DNA of 64,000 nt, taken from NCBI GenBank assembly GCA_020152595.1, contig JAIGNY010004296.1, positions 1-64,000 of the forward strand, written 5' to 3'. Within the stretch, counting starts at the first letter, position 1, and the number at the start of each line of letters is the position of its first letter. Positions 26,355 through 33,187 of the stretch are shown here, piece by piece. Position numbers and translations under genes: made by a program. A model generated the notes under the pieces. That model saw only the letters and a list, made by a program, of their open reading frames with translations, was not told the DNA's origin and did no database searches. This stretch comes from Chiridota heheva. Its lineage: Eukaryota; Echinodermata; Holothuroidea; Apodida; Chiridotidae.

Positions 26355-26627
26355 ATATATATATATATATATATATATATATATATATATATATATATAT
26401 ATATATATATATATATATATATATATATATATATATATATATATATATATATATATATATATATATATATATATATATATATATATATATATATATATAT
26501 ATATATATATATATATATATATATATATATATATATATATATATATATATATATATATATATATATATATATATATATATATATATATATATATATATAT
26601 ATATATATATATATATATATATATATT
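26355..26627. repeat. (TA)n microsatellite, left flank of the large TIR element
   Basis: About 270 bp of AT dinucleotides, ending exactly where the inverted terminus of the 6.5-kb element begins. Confidence 0.97.
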
Positions 26628-26842
26628 ACGAGAGTTATACTTACCTTCCATGCTAATAATATGCAATCTGGTCACTTGACTTGATTCTAACGCACTTCTA
26701 ACTGACCCTAAAAAACGCAGTAACCAGCCAAACCCTGACCTCCATGATACCTCTGTACCACCACCTCACTCAACATTCCACCGAGGCCTGAACGAGAGGG
26801 GAGGCGGGCGGGATGCATGGAAGGTAAGTATAACTCTCGTAA
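26626..26842. repeat. Nested palindrome with perfect 28-bp arms
   Basis: Bases 26626-26653 (beginning TTACGAGAGTTATACTTACC) are the exact reverse complement of 26815-26842. A third, direct copy of the TTACCTTCCATGC motif lies at about 26888. The 217-bp unit could itself be a miniature transposon. Confidence 0.85.
26635..26771 (+). repeat. Left terminal inverted repeat
   Basis: Pairs with 33052-33187. It differs mainly by single substitutions (for example GTCACTTGACTTG against GTCACATGACCTG in the other arm). Confidence 0.85.
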
Positions 26843-26939
26843 ATATCCCCGCTACGCTTAGCGAGGTAAATTTACTTCAAGTTATACCTTACCTTCCATG
26901 CTATTAATATGCAATCAGATTGCAACCGAGGATAGGACG

Positions 26940-29035
26940 GAAGGGAGTTCAGGTCGCAGCACATTTTTTTTTTTAATGGCTGGTACGAAAACTCACACTA
27001 ATCTTCTCTTAAGGATGAAAGACCTCAGAGTGGGAAGAACTAAAACATAGTAAACCACGTCTAGTCACAGTCAAACCGAACAAGGCACCATTCGTTGACA
27101 GTAACGGAGGCAAACATCGAATGAACCTGAGCCAAAAACTCAGAAGAACAAGCCAACCGGAAAAGCGTTTGGACACAATATGAATATCAGCAAAGTGTCT
27201 ACAAAAAACGCCACAAACCACACCGGATTCGTCCACGAGACGGAACCGGCTAGTAAACTACGATTGGGAACGAAGCGTGTACCAACTAAAACGAATTGAG
27301 AAATCCTGGACAAGGGAAAAATTCGTTAGCGCGTAACGTAAGAGCAAAGGTTAGCGGGGTAACACGAACGTCGAAAAGTGAGTCAGACCAAAAACAAGAA
27401 AAAAACCGCGAAAAGCGTTTTTCCAAACGGCGGCACGAGAAATCCTGTGAAAAGAGGCTATGCCCAAACCCGCGTGCATACCGCGGCCGTTCTATGAACA
27501 GCTCAGACTACTTGGAAAGAAAGTTACTGGACAATCTATCGGAGGAAAATGTCACATGACACACTACGAAGAGATCTTCGTGTAACTTTCCAGTGGTCGC
27601 GAGTCAAAGACCGTAGACCCAACTGGAAAAACCACGGTGGATAGCTGCAAGTTATCCCAGAGCTCATGACTCAGCCAAGTTTGAGAGAGGGTCCACCTCC
27701 ACAACGGGAAGGGGGGTGAACAACCTCTCAGAAAAACCATGCTACGTCGAGGAAAGGCGGACTAAGGCCACATCATCGAACGAAGCGCCCCGGGACTGAG
27801 AAGCAGTCCGCCAGAGCCCGGGAGAGAGACAAAGATCGTCCCTGACCCGAGGCCCGAACGTGAAGCCTGCAAGGTCCTAAGCAGCCGAGAGGACCGCAGT
27901 GAGCCGGGAAAAGTGGGCGCTATCGGCCGTACGTCGCCTAGCGTAGCATACTTGGTACTAGCATGAAAGGCGGAAAACGTAAACCACATAGTGGAGTTCT
28001 GAAGAAACAAATGCGTCGACCCTGAAACCCGCGGGTCAGGAGAAAGGACGCAAGAAAAGATAGCTTGCGATCATCCACGGACGCGGACAGACCTACGCCC
28101 GGGGGACCGAAAAAGGTCCTGATCGCTCTGGTCACCTACGGGAAGAACGCCCATCATGTGGGGCTTCCGCTGAAACGAGACGATAATGATCGTGTACTCG
28201 TAGTCCGAGGTAAGCGGCCGTAAGGCTGGCATACTTCGTCCTGCGCCGAGACGAGAGGAACGACTCCAGAAAACTCTTGGAGGCCGTTCCTAACTGTCTG
28301 AAAGGAGACCACAACAGTGGTGCAAAAACGGCGCGAAACTGAAAAAGCCTTGCTCAGCACTAGCGGTAAAAGGTGAACAGAAAAACCCCGGCATTCCGCC
28401 CGTTGAAAAAGGCCAAGTACCCGTCCAAGTTTCCGTCATAAGGGGTCACAAGAAAAGCGCCCTACCTTGATCAAGACGCATCCGTCGGCACTGACGGTGA
28501 AATCTGACGGGTGAAAACTTCGTTCCTCACACCAGGTGGGAGCATCCGCACCACCACCGAAGGGGGTGGCCACCGACTAATCGTGTAAAGCGGGGGTACT
28601 GAAAGACACCATCATCAGTCTAGAAAAGACTGCTGACCCTCAGCAAAGTTTGTTGAAACTTTACTGAACTAAACCAATGGCTAGCGAATTCAAAAGCAGG
28701 CCAATAATATAAGCAACAACCTTGGAACCGCGGAGCCAACGGCTACGAGTGTGGAGAAAACTAATACCGTATGTCTGTACGGGTAGTTAAGTAACAGGCC
28801 GTAAAGCCGCATTGAACTGCTTTAAGGTGTTAAAATATGGAATGAACTATACGTGCCGTCAATTTTAATAGCTACCCCGATCGTGAGGTTGTCTATCAAA
28901 AGGCCACCTATGTCAAGAAAAGTATCCGTCATGGCGTTAATTTTGACAGGCGGTGTAACGTACTACGTCAACCGAATAAGTCGTAAACCCCAGCACTGGG
29001 GTAAAAAATCACGAAAGAGTAGACATCCTGTGTGT
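26940..29035. other. CpG-rich interior of the TIR element, unique part
   Basis: Base composition changes sharply here: CG dinucleotides and TACG words are frequent, while flanking DNA is AT-rich. ORFs such as 27296-27559 (+) and 27762-28360 (-) are short, overlap on both strands and match no family I know. I therefore annotate no gene. Confidence 0.5.
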
Positions 29036-29039
29036 ACTA

Positions 29040-29620
29040 CATGGACCGTTAAACACCCATCACCACGGAGCTGAGGAGCGCGTGGCTACTGGGGGGACGT
29101 ACGCCGTACAAAGTATGCATCCCCATTCAGTATTATAGAGCCGTTATGGGTCTACAAAGGCGTCAGCATGACAAGTAAAATCCACTAGTCATCCGCCAAG
29201 TTTGTCTCTGTTCACCACAGAGCAAAAAGCTAGTAGCTACGGGAGGGAGACAACTGGAACTGGTACGTGTCCCTAACGTGATAGCTATCAGTACAAAAGA
29301 ACCCTCTAGGTCTACATAGCGTTAACGCACTACATCCGTAACGTGAGCCGTAACCTCAGTATACTTCTATTCACTACGGGGCCACCGAGTAAGTGGCTAC
29401 GCGTAGGGAAGTTGTACTCCGTACGCATTCCTGGAGAGAATAGCTAAAATATACTGGGGCCGTATGGAATACGGAGGAGTTTACGTGCTACGCAAGCTAT
29501 ACGAGTCGTAAACTCAGTTTGTTTCGTCACGGAGCTACGAAACTGGTAGCTGCGTGGGGAAGAGGGGACTACCGTCGTACTCAGTACGTGTCCCGGTAAG
29601 AACAACGGCCGCGGAACTCT
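29040..29620. repeat. Degenerate ~160-bp tandem repeat (four units)
   Basis: Units near 29043, 29210, 29345 and 29504 share the order CCGTAA, CACGGAGCTA, GTGGCTAC, GGGAAG, GTACG and CATTCCTGG-like words. Strongly diverged, so the count is approximate. Confidence 0.5.
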
Positions 29621-29689
29621 GTAGCTCATGGCTATTAGTCCTCTACCACACAGCTGCGCTGCAGGTGTAGGCCGTTAACTCGTGCGGAG

Positions 29690-31590: not shown

Positions 31591-31601
31591 CCTCTTAACT
31601 C

Positions 31602-31632
31602 TAGGTGGCGTTCATTTAGAACGTCACCTAAG
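31602..31632. other. Hairpin just after the 128-bp array
   Basis: TAGGTGGCGTTC, loop ATTTAG, GAACGTCACCTA: a 12-bp stem with one mismatch, enclosed by AACTC and GAGTT. Confidence 0.6.
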
Positions 31633-32183
31633 GCGCAACGCCACTGAGTTAATTATTCTCGGTAAAATTCCTGAAAAGAGAAGAACATATCCATGCGTAC
31701 ATACACAAATACGGTAAGTAACTATGACCCTACGATCACGCTAAAGAGAGACGAGGCATAGCAGACAAGTACAGCAAAAGAAAAATTTTAAACAGAATTT
31801 TTTTTTTTTTTTAAACCCGAGAAAACGCTTACAACGTAAAAACTTTACAAGCGCCGGGGTAACGTGGAAAAACACAAACCACTGAGTACTTGATGTCTGT
31901 AAAGATGAAAAGAAAGGATTAGTTTCCCTTTAAATAGGACGTCGGAGAGACCCCCTCCCGGTCTCTCCAACGCCCCAAAAATCAAGCTTGAAAATTAAAA
32001 ACTTTGTCTCTAATTTATGTAAGAAAAACAGAAATATACATACGCTGGTAACGTCAAAACAAAAATAAGCTCTCTTGTAACAACTGTAGCTCCTTGGAGT
32101 TGTTAGAGGTCGACTCCTCAAACACCCAACGGTGACCTCGACCCAATGCGCATGCGCCAAAATCGAAAGAAAACTGGCTTAAT

Positions 32184-32655
32184 GCATACGAAAACGTGTA
32201 CTGAAATATCCTAACGTGGTAATACAATACATAGTATAACGCTAGGCTCTGCATACGAGAACGTGTACTGAAATATCCTAACGTGCTAATACAAAACATA
32301 GTATAACGCTAGGCTCTGCATACGAGAACGTGTACTGAAATATCCTAACGTGCTAATACAAAACATAGTATAACGCTAGGCTCTGCATATGAGAACGTGT
32401 ACTGAAATATCCTAACGTGCTAATACAATACATAGTATAACGCTAGGCTCTGCATACGAGAACGTGTACTGAAATATCCTAACGTGCTAATACAAAACAG
32501 AGTAAAACGCTAGGCTCTGCCTACGAGAACTTGTACTGAAATATCCTAACGTGCTAATACAATACATAGTAAAACGATAGGCTCTGCATACAAGAATGTG
32601 TACTGAAATAAGCTAACGTGCTAATACACTATACATAGTAAAACGCTAGGCTCTC
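32184..32655. repeat. Seven copies of a 67-bp tandem repeat
   Basis: The word GCATACGAGAACGTGTACTG (or a close variant) starts at 32184, 32251, 32318, 32385, 32452, 32519 and 32586, always 67 bp apart; each unit ends ACGCTAGGCTCT. Low divergence implies recent expansion or homogenisation. Confidence 0.95.
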
Positions 32656-33051
32656 CTCGTGTAGGGTGGAGCCAAGGGTGAAAAACACCTAAACCCCGGG
32701 GCAAGAGGTCCCCTAGACAGGCACACCTGGTGCTCTAGGACCTAAAACACCCGCCACGAGAGTAGGACGCTCTCGAACTAGCCACTCGGTTTGTACGAAT
32801 GGAGACAAAAACCCGCTATCCTAAGTGTAGGCTACACGGGTAAAGTCGTGTAGGTCGGCCGAAGAATCTCGGACCCATGGCTACCTCGTCCTTACCTCGA
32901 AAGACTTGAAAAGGCAAGCCGGATGAGAAAGGGCAGCGTAAAAACCCTCCAGGTAAAAGCTGCAAAGGAGAAAAGAGTTAGAAAAGGTTAAATTAATTAA
33001 AATAAAAATGACCAGTTTCAGCAATAGTTAGTGCAACAACGCGCTGAAAAA

Positions 33052-33187
33052 GAGTGAGGTGGTGGTACAGAGGTATTATGGAGGTCAGGGCTTGGCTGGT
33101 TACTGCGTTTGTTAGGGTCGGTTAGAAGTGCGTTAGAATCAGGTCATGTGACCAGATTGCATATTAATAGCATGGAAGGTAAGGTAT
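33052..33187 (-). repeat. Right terminal inverted repeat
   Basis: Inverted partner of 26635-26771. Its outer end AGCATGGAAGGTAAGGTATA runs into (TA)n. Confidence 0.85.

Follow-up and report, generated by a model that had tools for sequence, protein, structure and literature searches.

A stretch of 64,000 nucleotides from the genome of Chiridota heheva (contig JAIGNY010004296.1, positions 1 to 64,000; hereafter the window, in which all coordinates are given) holds a unit of 6.56 kb with inverted ends of about 95% identity, flanked on both sides by (TA)n tracts. This element is very probably a non-autonomous, coding-eroded copy of a DIRS1-like (tyrosine-recombinase) retrotransposon family, and its sense strand is the window minus strand. 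No credible long open reading frame was found in the interior of the window copy. An initial annotation, made from the letters of the window, had recognized inverted termini between two (TA)n tracts, and these are indeed present as arms of 132 nt at 95% complementarity (26640-26771 and 33052-33183), the kind of inverted terminal repeat (ITR) that DIRS1-like elements carry. That annotation knew of no family with this build; the terminal architecture is, however, that described for DIRS1-like retrotransposons, namely ITRs, an internal complementary region (ICR) and a circle junction (PMC3266345).

Shared ends, internal complementary region and insertion sites

The search space was the genome assembly of 1.10 Gb in 3744 contigs. 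With the left 175 bp as query, 2357 first-look candidates were obtained, of which the best 40 that were scored were 94-100% identical. Since the 20 regions fetched for comparison were chosen around the top matches, the sample is biased towards the window copy. In 12 of these 20 regions, 90% or more of the interior at 27010-28705 is present, with a mean pairwise identity of 0.934 (12 copies and the window copy). It is present with a gap in L009 and in parts in L015, L018, L024 and L026, while the interiors of L011, L012 and L023 differ from that of the window copy. With 27200-28700 as a second interior query, the 40 candidates scored yielded 42 matches; 39 of these, the window itself among them, cover 1298 or more of the 1501 bases at 89-100% identity. 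The element thus recurs with the same ends and order on many contigs. The search for multi-copy ends with shared boundaries that had been proposed with the initial annotation therefore succeeded genome-wide, and its suggestion of a large non-autonomous mobile element is supported by the many copies with common ends. An assembly artefact, or an unrelated inverted duplication lying beside microsatellites, could be suspected from the difficulty of assembling (TA)n tracts and from the lack of both tips in the window copy, but these copies refute it and its probability is negligible.

The arms seen in the window are real, although the true tips extend further in intact copies and have been lost into (TA)n in the window copy, so that the ends placed at (TA)n by the initial annotation fall short of the element's own. 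Intact left tips in other copies read AT-TTACCCCGCTAAGC..., that is AT-TTACCCCGCTAAGCGTAGCGGGGATATTTACGAGAG, and intact right tips read ...CTTGAAGTAA-AT, giving an overall pattern of AT-TTAC...GTAA-AT. An ITR of about 140 bp is conserved in L010, L021 and L022, and the two ITR tips diverge outside this shared portion. The left end is a composite of ITR followed by ICR (26815-26916); a reading of the 217-bp left unit as a miniature inverted-repeat transposable element was dropped when the copies showed it to be ITR plus ICR.

The ICR consists of two halves which, in reverse complement, match the left and right tips of the same copy and meet at GTAAATTTAC. This was assessed in the 20 fetched copies, 19 of them readable on the left (the end of L014 lies outside the scanned stretch) and 9 on both sides. 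On the 3' side of the ICR, 49-56 of 52-57 aligned positions are identical to the copy's own tip in 19 of 20 copies; on the 5' side the match ranges from 39/41 to 48/48 in the 9 copies with both ends read. The junction is exactly GTAAATTTAC in 17 of 19 copies.

Among copies selected by similarity to the window copy, ATTT precedes ACCCC at the left tip in 34 of 43 cases (49 regions examined, 6 without a tip), the exceptions being ATAT (3), GTTT (2) and ACTT, ATCT, ATTC and TTTT (1 each). At the right tip, AAAT follows GAAGT in 37 of 40 (51 regions examined, 11 without a tip), with AAAC, ATAT and AAGT once each. The comparison of L009 with L058 resolves a single event, in which insertion inside a 27-bp tandem repeat of unit ACACATATACAAAC gave ACACATAT, then TTACC...AAGTAA, then ATACAAAC; one AT was gained and nothing else. 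This is a short junction of the DIRS1-like kind, with a 2-bp core (AT) and no long target duplication. An 8-bp target duplication, considered from L018 alone, was not borne out by other copies.

A (TA)5 or longer repeat lies within 30 bp of the tip in 18 of 43 flanks on the left and in 16 of 40 on the right. The background, taken from the one 64-kb window and not from the genome, is 1 in 1872 30-bp windows (38 in 2133 if the window's own TA tracts are kept). The targeting of TA microsatellites suggested in the initial annotation is thus borne out as an enrichment; with over half of the flanks lacking such repeats, it amounts to a preference and not a rule. Such frequent homes in (TA)n agree with the AT core, which is the likely reason for the location of the element in TA.

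A large non-autonomous DNA transposon with terminal inverted repeats (TIRs), of Tc1/mariner-like or Ginger2-like type and with TA or (TA)n as its target, would also account for the inverted ends, the 2-bp direct repeat found at them and the TA-rich surroundings, and endogenous nimaviruses of sesarmid crabs that bear Ginger2 are described as integrating into (AT/TA)n as well (PMC10871703). However, no reason is known why a DNA transposon should have an ICR that matches its own tips in joined form. The ITR tips differ beyond the shared ~140 bp in a DIRS-like manner, a relative with the same ends encodes reverse transcriptase, and no DDE transposase family was found in 23 coding-relative pieces scanned against Pfam. 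A TIR transposon is accordingly very improbable.

Coding relatives and the eroded interior

Both ends of the element are found in L012 and L023, and the left end in L011 (its right end was not seen). Coding sequence lies on the minus strand between the two shared ends of L012, and the interiors of L011, L012 and L023 hold between them reverse transcriptase, gag and a recombinase-like frame. From the left end into the coding region, a distance of 3.6 kb, L011 has 90.6% identity to L012. L023 has two parts in common with L012, the right end and, at 83% over 2.7 kb, the gag side. Open pieces of L012 match Pfam RVT_1 (E = 8.5e-11) and reverse transcriptases of the PDB (E = 1.3e-8 and weaker). With the coding DNA of L012 as query, 60 matches were obtained from 40 scored candidates, mostly at 89-93%, with two long ones at 84% and 81%. 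Among such coding copies, both tips can be recognized in C1201, where the left is slightly changed; in C3417 the right tip is present and no left tip was found, and in C2033 both are altered. The new element type, TIR DNA transposon or satellite-like unit proposed in the initial annotation is not supported: L012, with the same ends, encodes reverse transcriptase, gag-like and recombinase-like pieces.

Beyond about 3.77 kb, L011 matches Exo_endo_phos_2 (E = 2.6e-23) and RVT_1 and is non-LTR-like, with related sequence in L019 and L009. As L011 and L012 diverge at that point, the stronger reverse transcriptase, RNase H and endonuclease matches of L011 are attributed to a separate insertion.

The recombinase-like frame is open for 479-495 codons in five of five copies, which had been picked for long open frames, and carries R...HxxR...W...Y in order. 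Ratios of nonsynonymous to synonymous substitution of 0.09, 0.26 and 0.24 for the three pairs of L089, L090 and L093 count in favour of the assignment. The label recombinase-like, suggested by these motifs and a sub-threshold Pfam match and not statistically proven, goes no further because the Pfam match is sub-threshold, the PDB gave no meaningful match and the AlphaFold models were unusable.

Several observations weigh against the DIRS1-like assignment. The Phage_integrase scores of the frame are below the Pfam cut-off (E = 0.067-0.19, the family not being listed for L089), a PDB search with the frame gave no meaningful match, and two AlphaFold models of the recombinase-like part reached a mean predicted local distance difference test score of 34-35 and were not used. 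The substitution ratios given above come from copies picked for open frames and partly cover overlapping frames. In 16 further, more diverged copies a nearly full-length single open piece occurs in L105 and L112 only, and 3 of 19 aligned rows are without the second R of HxxR. RNase H-like matches in a piece of L011 are sub-threshold (E = 0.024 and 0.031), and no methyltransferase match to Pfam was found in the pieces scanned, no further search having been made. The similarity-based choice of tip-bearing copies belongs here too, as do the absence of a signal of ITR homogenization within copies (within-copy mean 0.973, between-copy 0.969, 10 copies) and a junction core of 2 bp (AT) where 3 bp is reported (PMC3266345).

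Parts of the apparently gene-less interior are eroded gag and pol. A DNA profile built from the coding part of L011 and L012 and run with nhmmer on the window matched three segments of the element (Table 1), and gave no match in 22 kb and 30 kb of flanking window or in the reversed element; five block-shuffles of the element produced two matches in all, at E = 3.3. N-terminal gag was located by tblastn with P0005 on the minus strand at 30264-30034 (58% over 77 columns, E = 2.1e-19), with a second match of 72% over 29 (E = 1.2e-8). These matches, together with an order and strand of the remnants that agree with the coding copies, are the ground for the identification. The earlier statement of no credible protein thus holds for intact proteins and fails for these eroded parts.

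Compared with the coding copies measured, ITR and ICR have 94-96% identity, the leader has 88-94% and N-terminal gag 85%, whereas pol has no blastn match over 60% of its length and one 177-bp stretch at 69%. Such a sharp step would suit a chimera, in which ends, leader and N-terminal gag derive from the present coding family and the eroded pol from an older, dead DIRS lineage joined by template switching; strong constraint on cis-acting ends with free internal decay would, however, give a step too. A chimera, which concerns origin and is compatible with the DIRS1-like reading, is a tentative proposal whose chances we put a little below even.

The interior is CpG-rich compared with most flanking samples, as initially annotated. 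Its base composition (A-skew and CpG) resembles that of the equivalent stretch in the coding relative, so that neither the A-skew nor the richness in CpG calls for a special cause. Preservation of the interior in its own right, as a large structured RNA and a passenger resembling the LARDs (the large non-coding derivatives of long terminal repeat retrotransposons), could be read from 18 perfect hairpins against about 6.3 expected in six 1-kb blocks, although one block alone exceeds z = 2, and from RNAalifold z-scores that are negative on either strand (means per block from -0.8 to -2.7). These signals are modest and not strand-specific, A-skew and CpG level look inherited, being alike in the coding relative, and no Rfam match was found at gathering thresholds; ARAGORN scans also found nothing. 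This unlikely explanation was set aside on account of the similar base composition of the coding relative.

The initial annotation had the interior built mostly of five tandem arrays. Arrays are present, but three are clear and together span some 1.5 kb of the 6.56 kb, roughly one quarter, beside a diverged duplication of about 290 bp. The 128-bp x 4 array has a match in L021 alone among the 20 fetched regions, and its restriction to these two copies suggests a young sublineage or recent exchange. L020 and L025 carry an extra 3.7 and 3.9 kb at the site that corresponds to window position 28712, and these additions have only about 180 bp and 43 bp in common; these shared bits are probably the ~217 bp found there in several copies and absent from the window copy.

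Abundance, proposed cycle and known systems

Diagnostic 30-mers, counted with at most 3 mismatches over the whole 1.10-Gb genome (reversed-pattern controls gave 0), occur 931 times for the eroded interior, 338 times for the coding frame and 2813 times for the ICR junction. By subtraction, roughly 1500 ICR copies carry neither of the other words and are shorter, broken or other members.

From these features a cycle may be proposed. A copy of the element would be transcribed and its RNA copied by the reverse transcriptase of coding relatives, whereupon the ICR would pair with the two ITR tips and template a joined-end circle with the junction GTAA-AT-TTAC. A tyrosine recombinase would then recombine this circle into the genome at an AT, so that an AT stands at either end and no longer duplication arises, and a (TA)n tract, by supplying many AT cores, would become a frequent home. 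Gene-bearing relatives probably move the eroded element in this manner, and the family may be active at present. The non-coding sublineage would have lost its genes while retaining ITRs, ICR and 5' leader, and because these are kept it should still be mobilizable in trans. On balance we favour, with some reserve, a gene-dead full-length DIRS1-like lineage that has outgrown its coding partner (931 to 338, a rough ratio as the diagnostic words differ in conservation) while keeping only ITRs, ICR and leader, for which the 2-bp AT core makes (TA)n landing sites, a trans-mobilized parasite with a defined coding partner and a simple principle of target choice.

The likeness to DIRS1-like elements (Dictyostelium DIRS-1 and others, as described in PMC3266345 and PMC2685390) comprises ITRs with divergent outer tips and one extended end, an ICR that lies close to the 3' end and is complementary to both tips, a short junction without long target duplication, reverse transcriptase in the coding relative, and a recombinase-like frame open across part of pol in another frame. 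The window copy differs in having no intact gene, and intact non-coding copies are often about 7.7-8.0 kb, in contrast to 3974-6283 bp reported for 28 DIRS1-like elements; NTT ends are reported for 23 of the 28, and a 3-bp circular junction is described (PMC3266345).

The only gene-less derivative of a recombinase-type retroelement that searches of the open-access literature brought up is SIRE, the short non-autonomous form of the tyrosine-recombinase element VIPER, which likewise keeps the ends of its parent (PMC6681497). SIRE, composed of VIPER ends, measures about 0.4 kb, whereas the present element is full length with eroded genes and its coding partner has DIRS-type ITRs and ICR. The endogenous nimaviruses occupy the same microsatellite niche with a Ginger2-like transposase, and differ in enzyme type and anatomy (PMC10871703). 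In the accessible text of the open-access literature, including PMC8498967, PMC9210276, PMC12477816 and PMC3783388, no non-autonomous DIRS1-like family built in this way was found, which is weak evidence of absence.

LARDs are long and non-coding, as is the present element, which would resemble them also in being mobilized in trans. They have long terminal repeats, whereas inverted ends and an ICR are present here, and self-comparison showed no direct repeat between the element's two ends. Among viral contigs the exact pattern gave 0 matches, and none of 66 pattern matches with query A3 was confirmed.

As a single genome offers both coding and gene-dead copies whose tips, junctions and target sites can be read, the DIRS circle-and-recombine model and the minimal cis sequence that it requires become directly testable. 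A DIRS copy without genes and without long target duplication can also pass for a new TIR element.

Feature coordinates and other repeats of the window

Table 1 Features of the element and its flanks (window positions; -, minus strand)
Feature	Position	Strand	Basis or remark
(TA)n tract, left flank	26355-26626		TRF; swallowed the left tip (~28 bp present in other copies)
3' ITR and adjacent sequence	26626-26814	-	Outermost tip missing
ICR	26815-26916	-	Two arms complementary to outer tips of 3' and 5' ITRs
Circle junction GTAA-AT-TTAC within ICR	26866-26875	-	Sequence and within-copy matches
Weak remnant, region 3' of recombinase-like frame of coding relatives	26983-27263	-	nhmmer E = 1.6e-8
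Weak remnant, recombinase-like region	27580-27650	-	nhmmer E = 9.5e-5
Eroded pol (RNase H and following region), colinear with coding relatives	27727-28577	-	nhmmer E = 3.8e-64; tblastn P0007 E = 1.4e-6
First copy of diverged ~290-bp duplication	29706-29998		76% identical to 30213-30491
Eroded N-terminal gag, in and beside second copy of the duplication	30034-30299	-	tblastn P0005
Degenerate tandem array, unit ~31-44 bp, GGAACCGT...CCCGTAAACACGGGCC	30507-31037		TRF and self-comparison
Tandem array, 128 bp x 4	31073-31579		TRF
Probable 5' untranslated region, common to L012 and L023	31580-33051	-	88-94% identity in measured segments
67-bp x 7 array inside probable 5' untranslated region	32183-32654	-	TRF
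5' ITR	33052-33188	-	Outermost tip missing (ACTTGAAGTAA-AT in other copies)
(TA)n tract, right flank	33185-33411		TRF

Elsewhere in the window, a 220-aa open frame at 21010-21672 matches RVT_1 (E = 4.2e-18) and is a separate retroelement fragment. Dispersed repeats of about 160 bp, the size of short interspersed elements, lie in both orientations at 12592-12764, 15552-15714, 16284-16448 and 42449-42620, and another of about 170 bp at 25730-25901, 36594-36766 and 59932-60104, the first two inverted at 94%. Tandem repeats comprise a 17-bp minisatellite of about 82 copies (46275-47609), long degenerate minisatellites of the CCCATGTCCCACATGG type (38180-39402) and the GGACGGACAATAGATGTG type (54816-55507), and a 22-bp array of 13.3 copies at 97% match (56604-56895), whose unit TAGCAAAGATTCAATCTTTTGG contains an internal near-palindrome.

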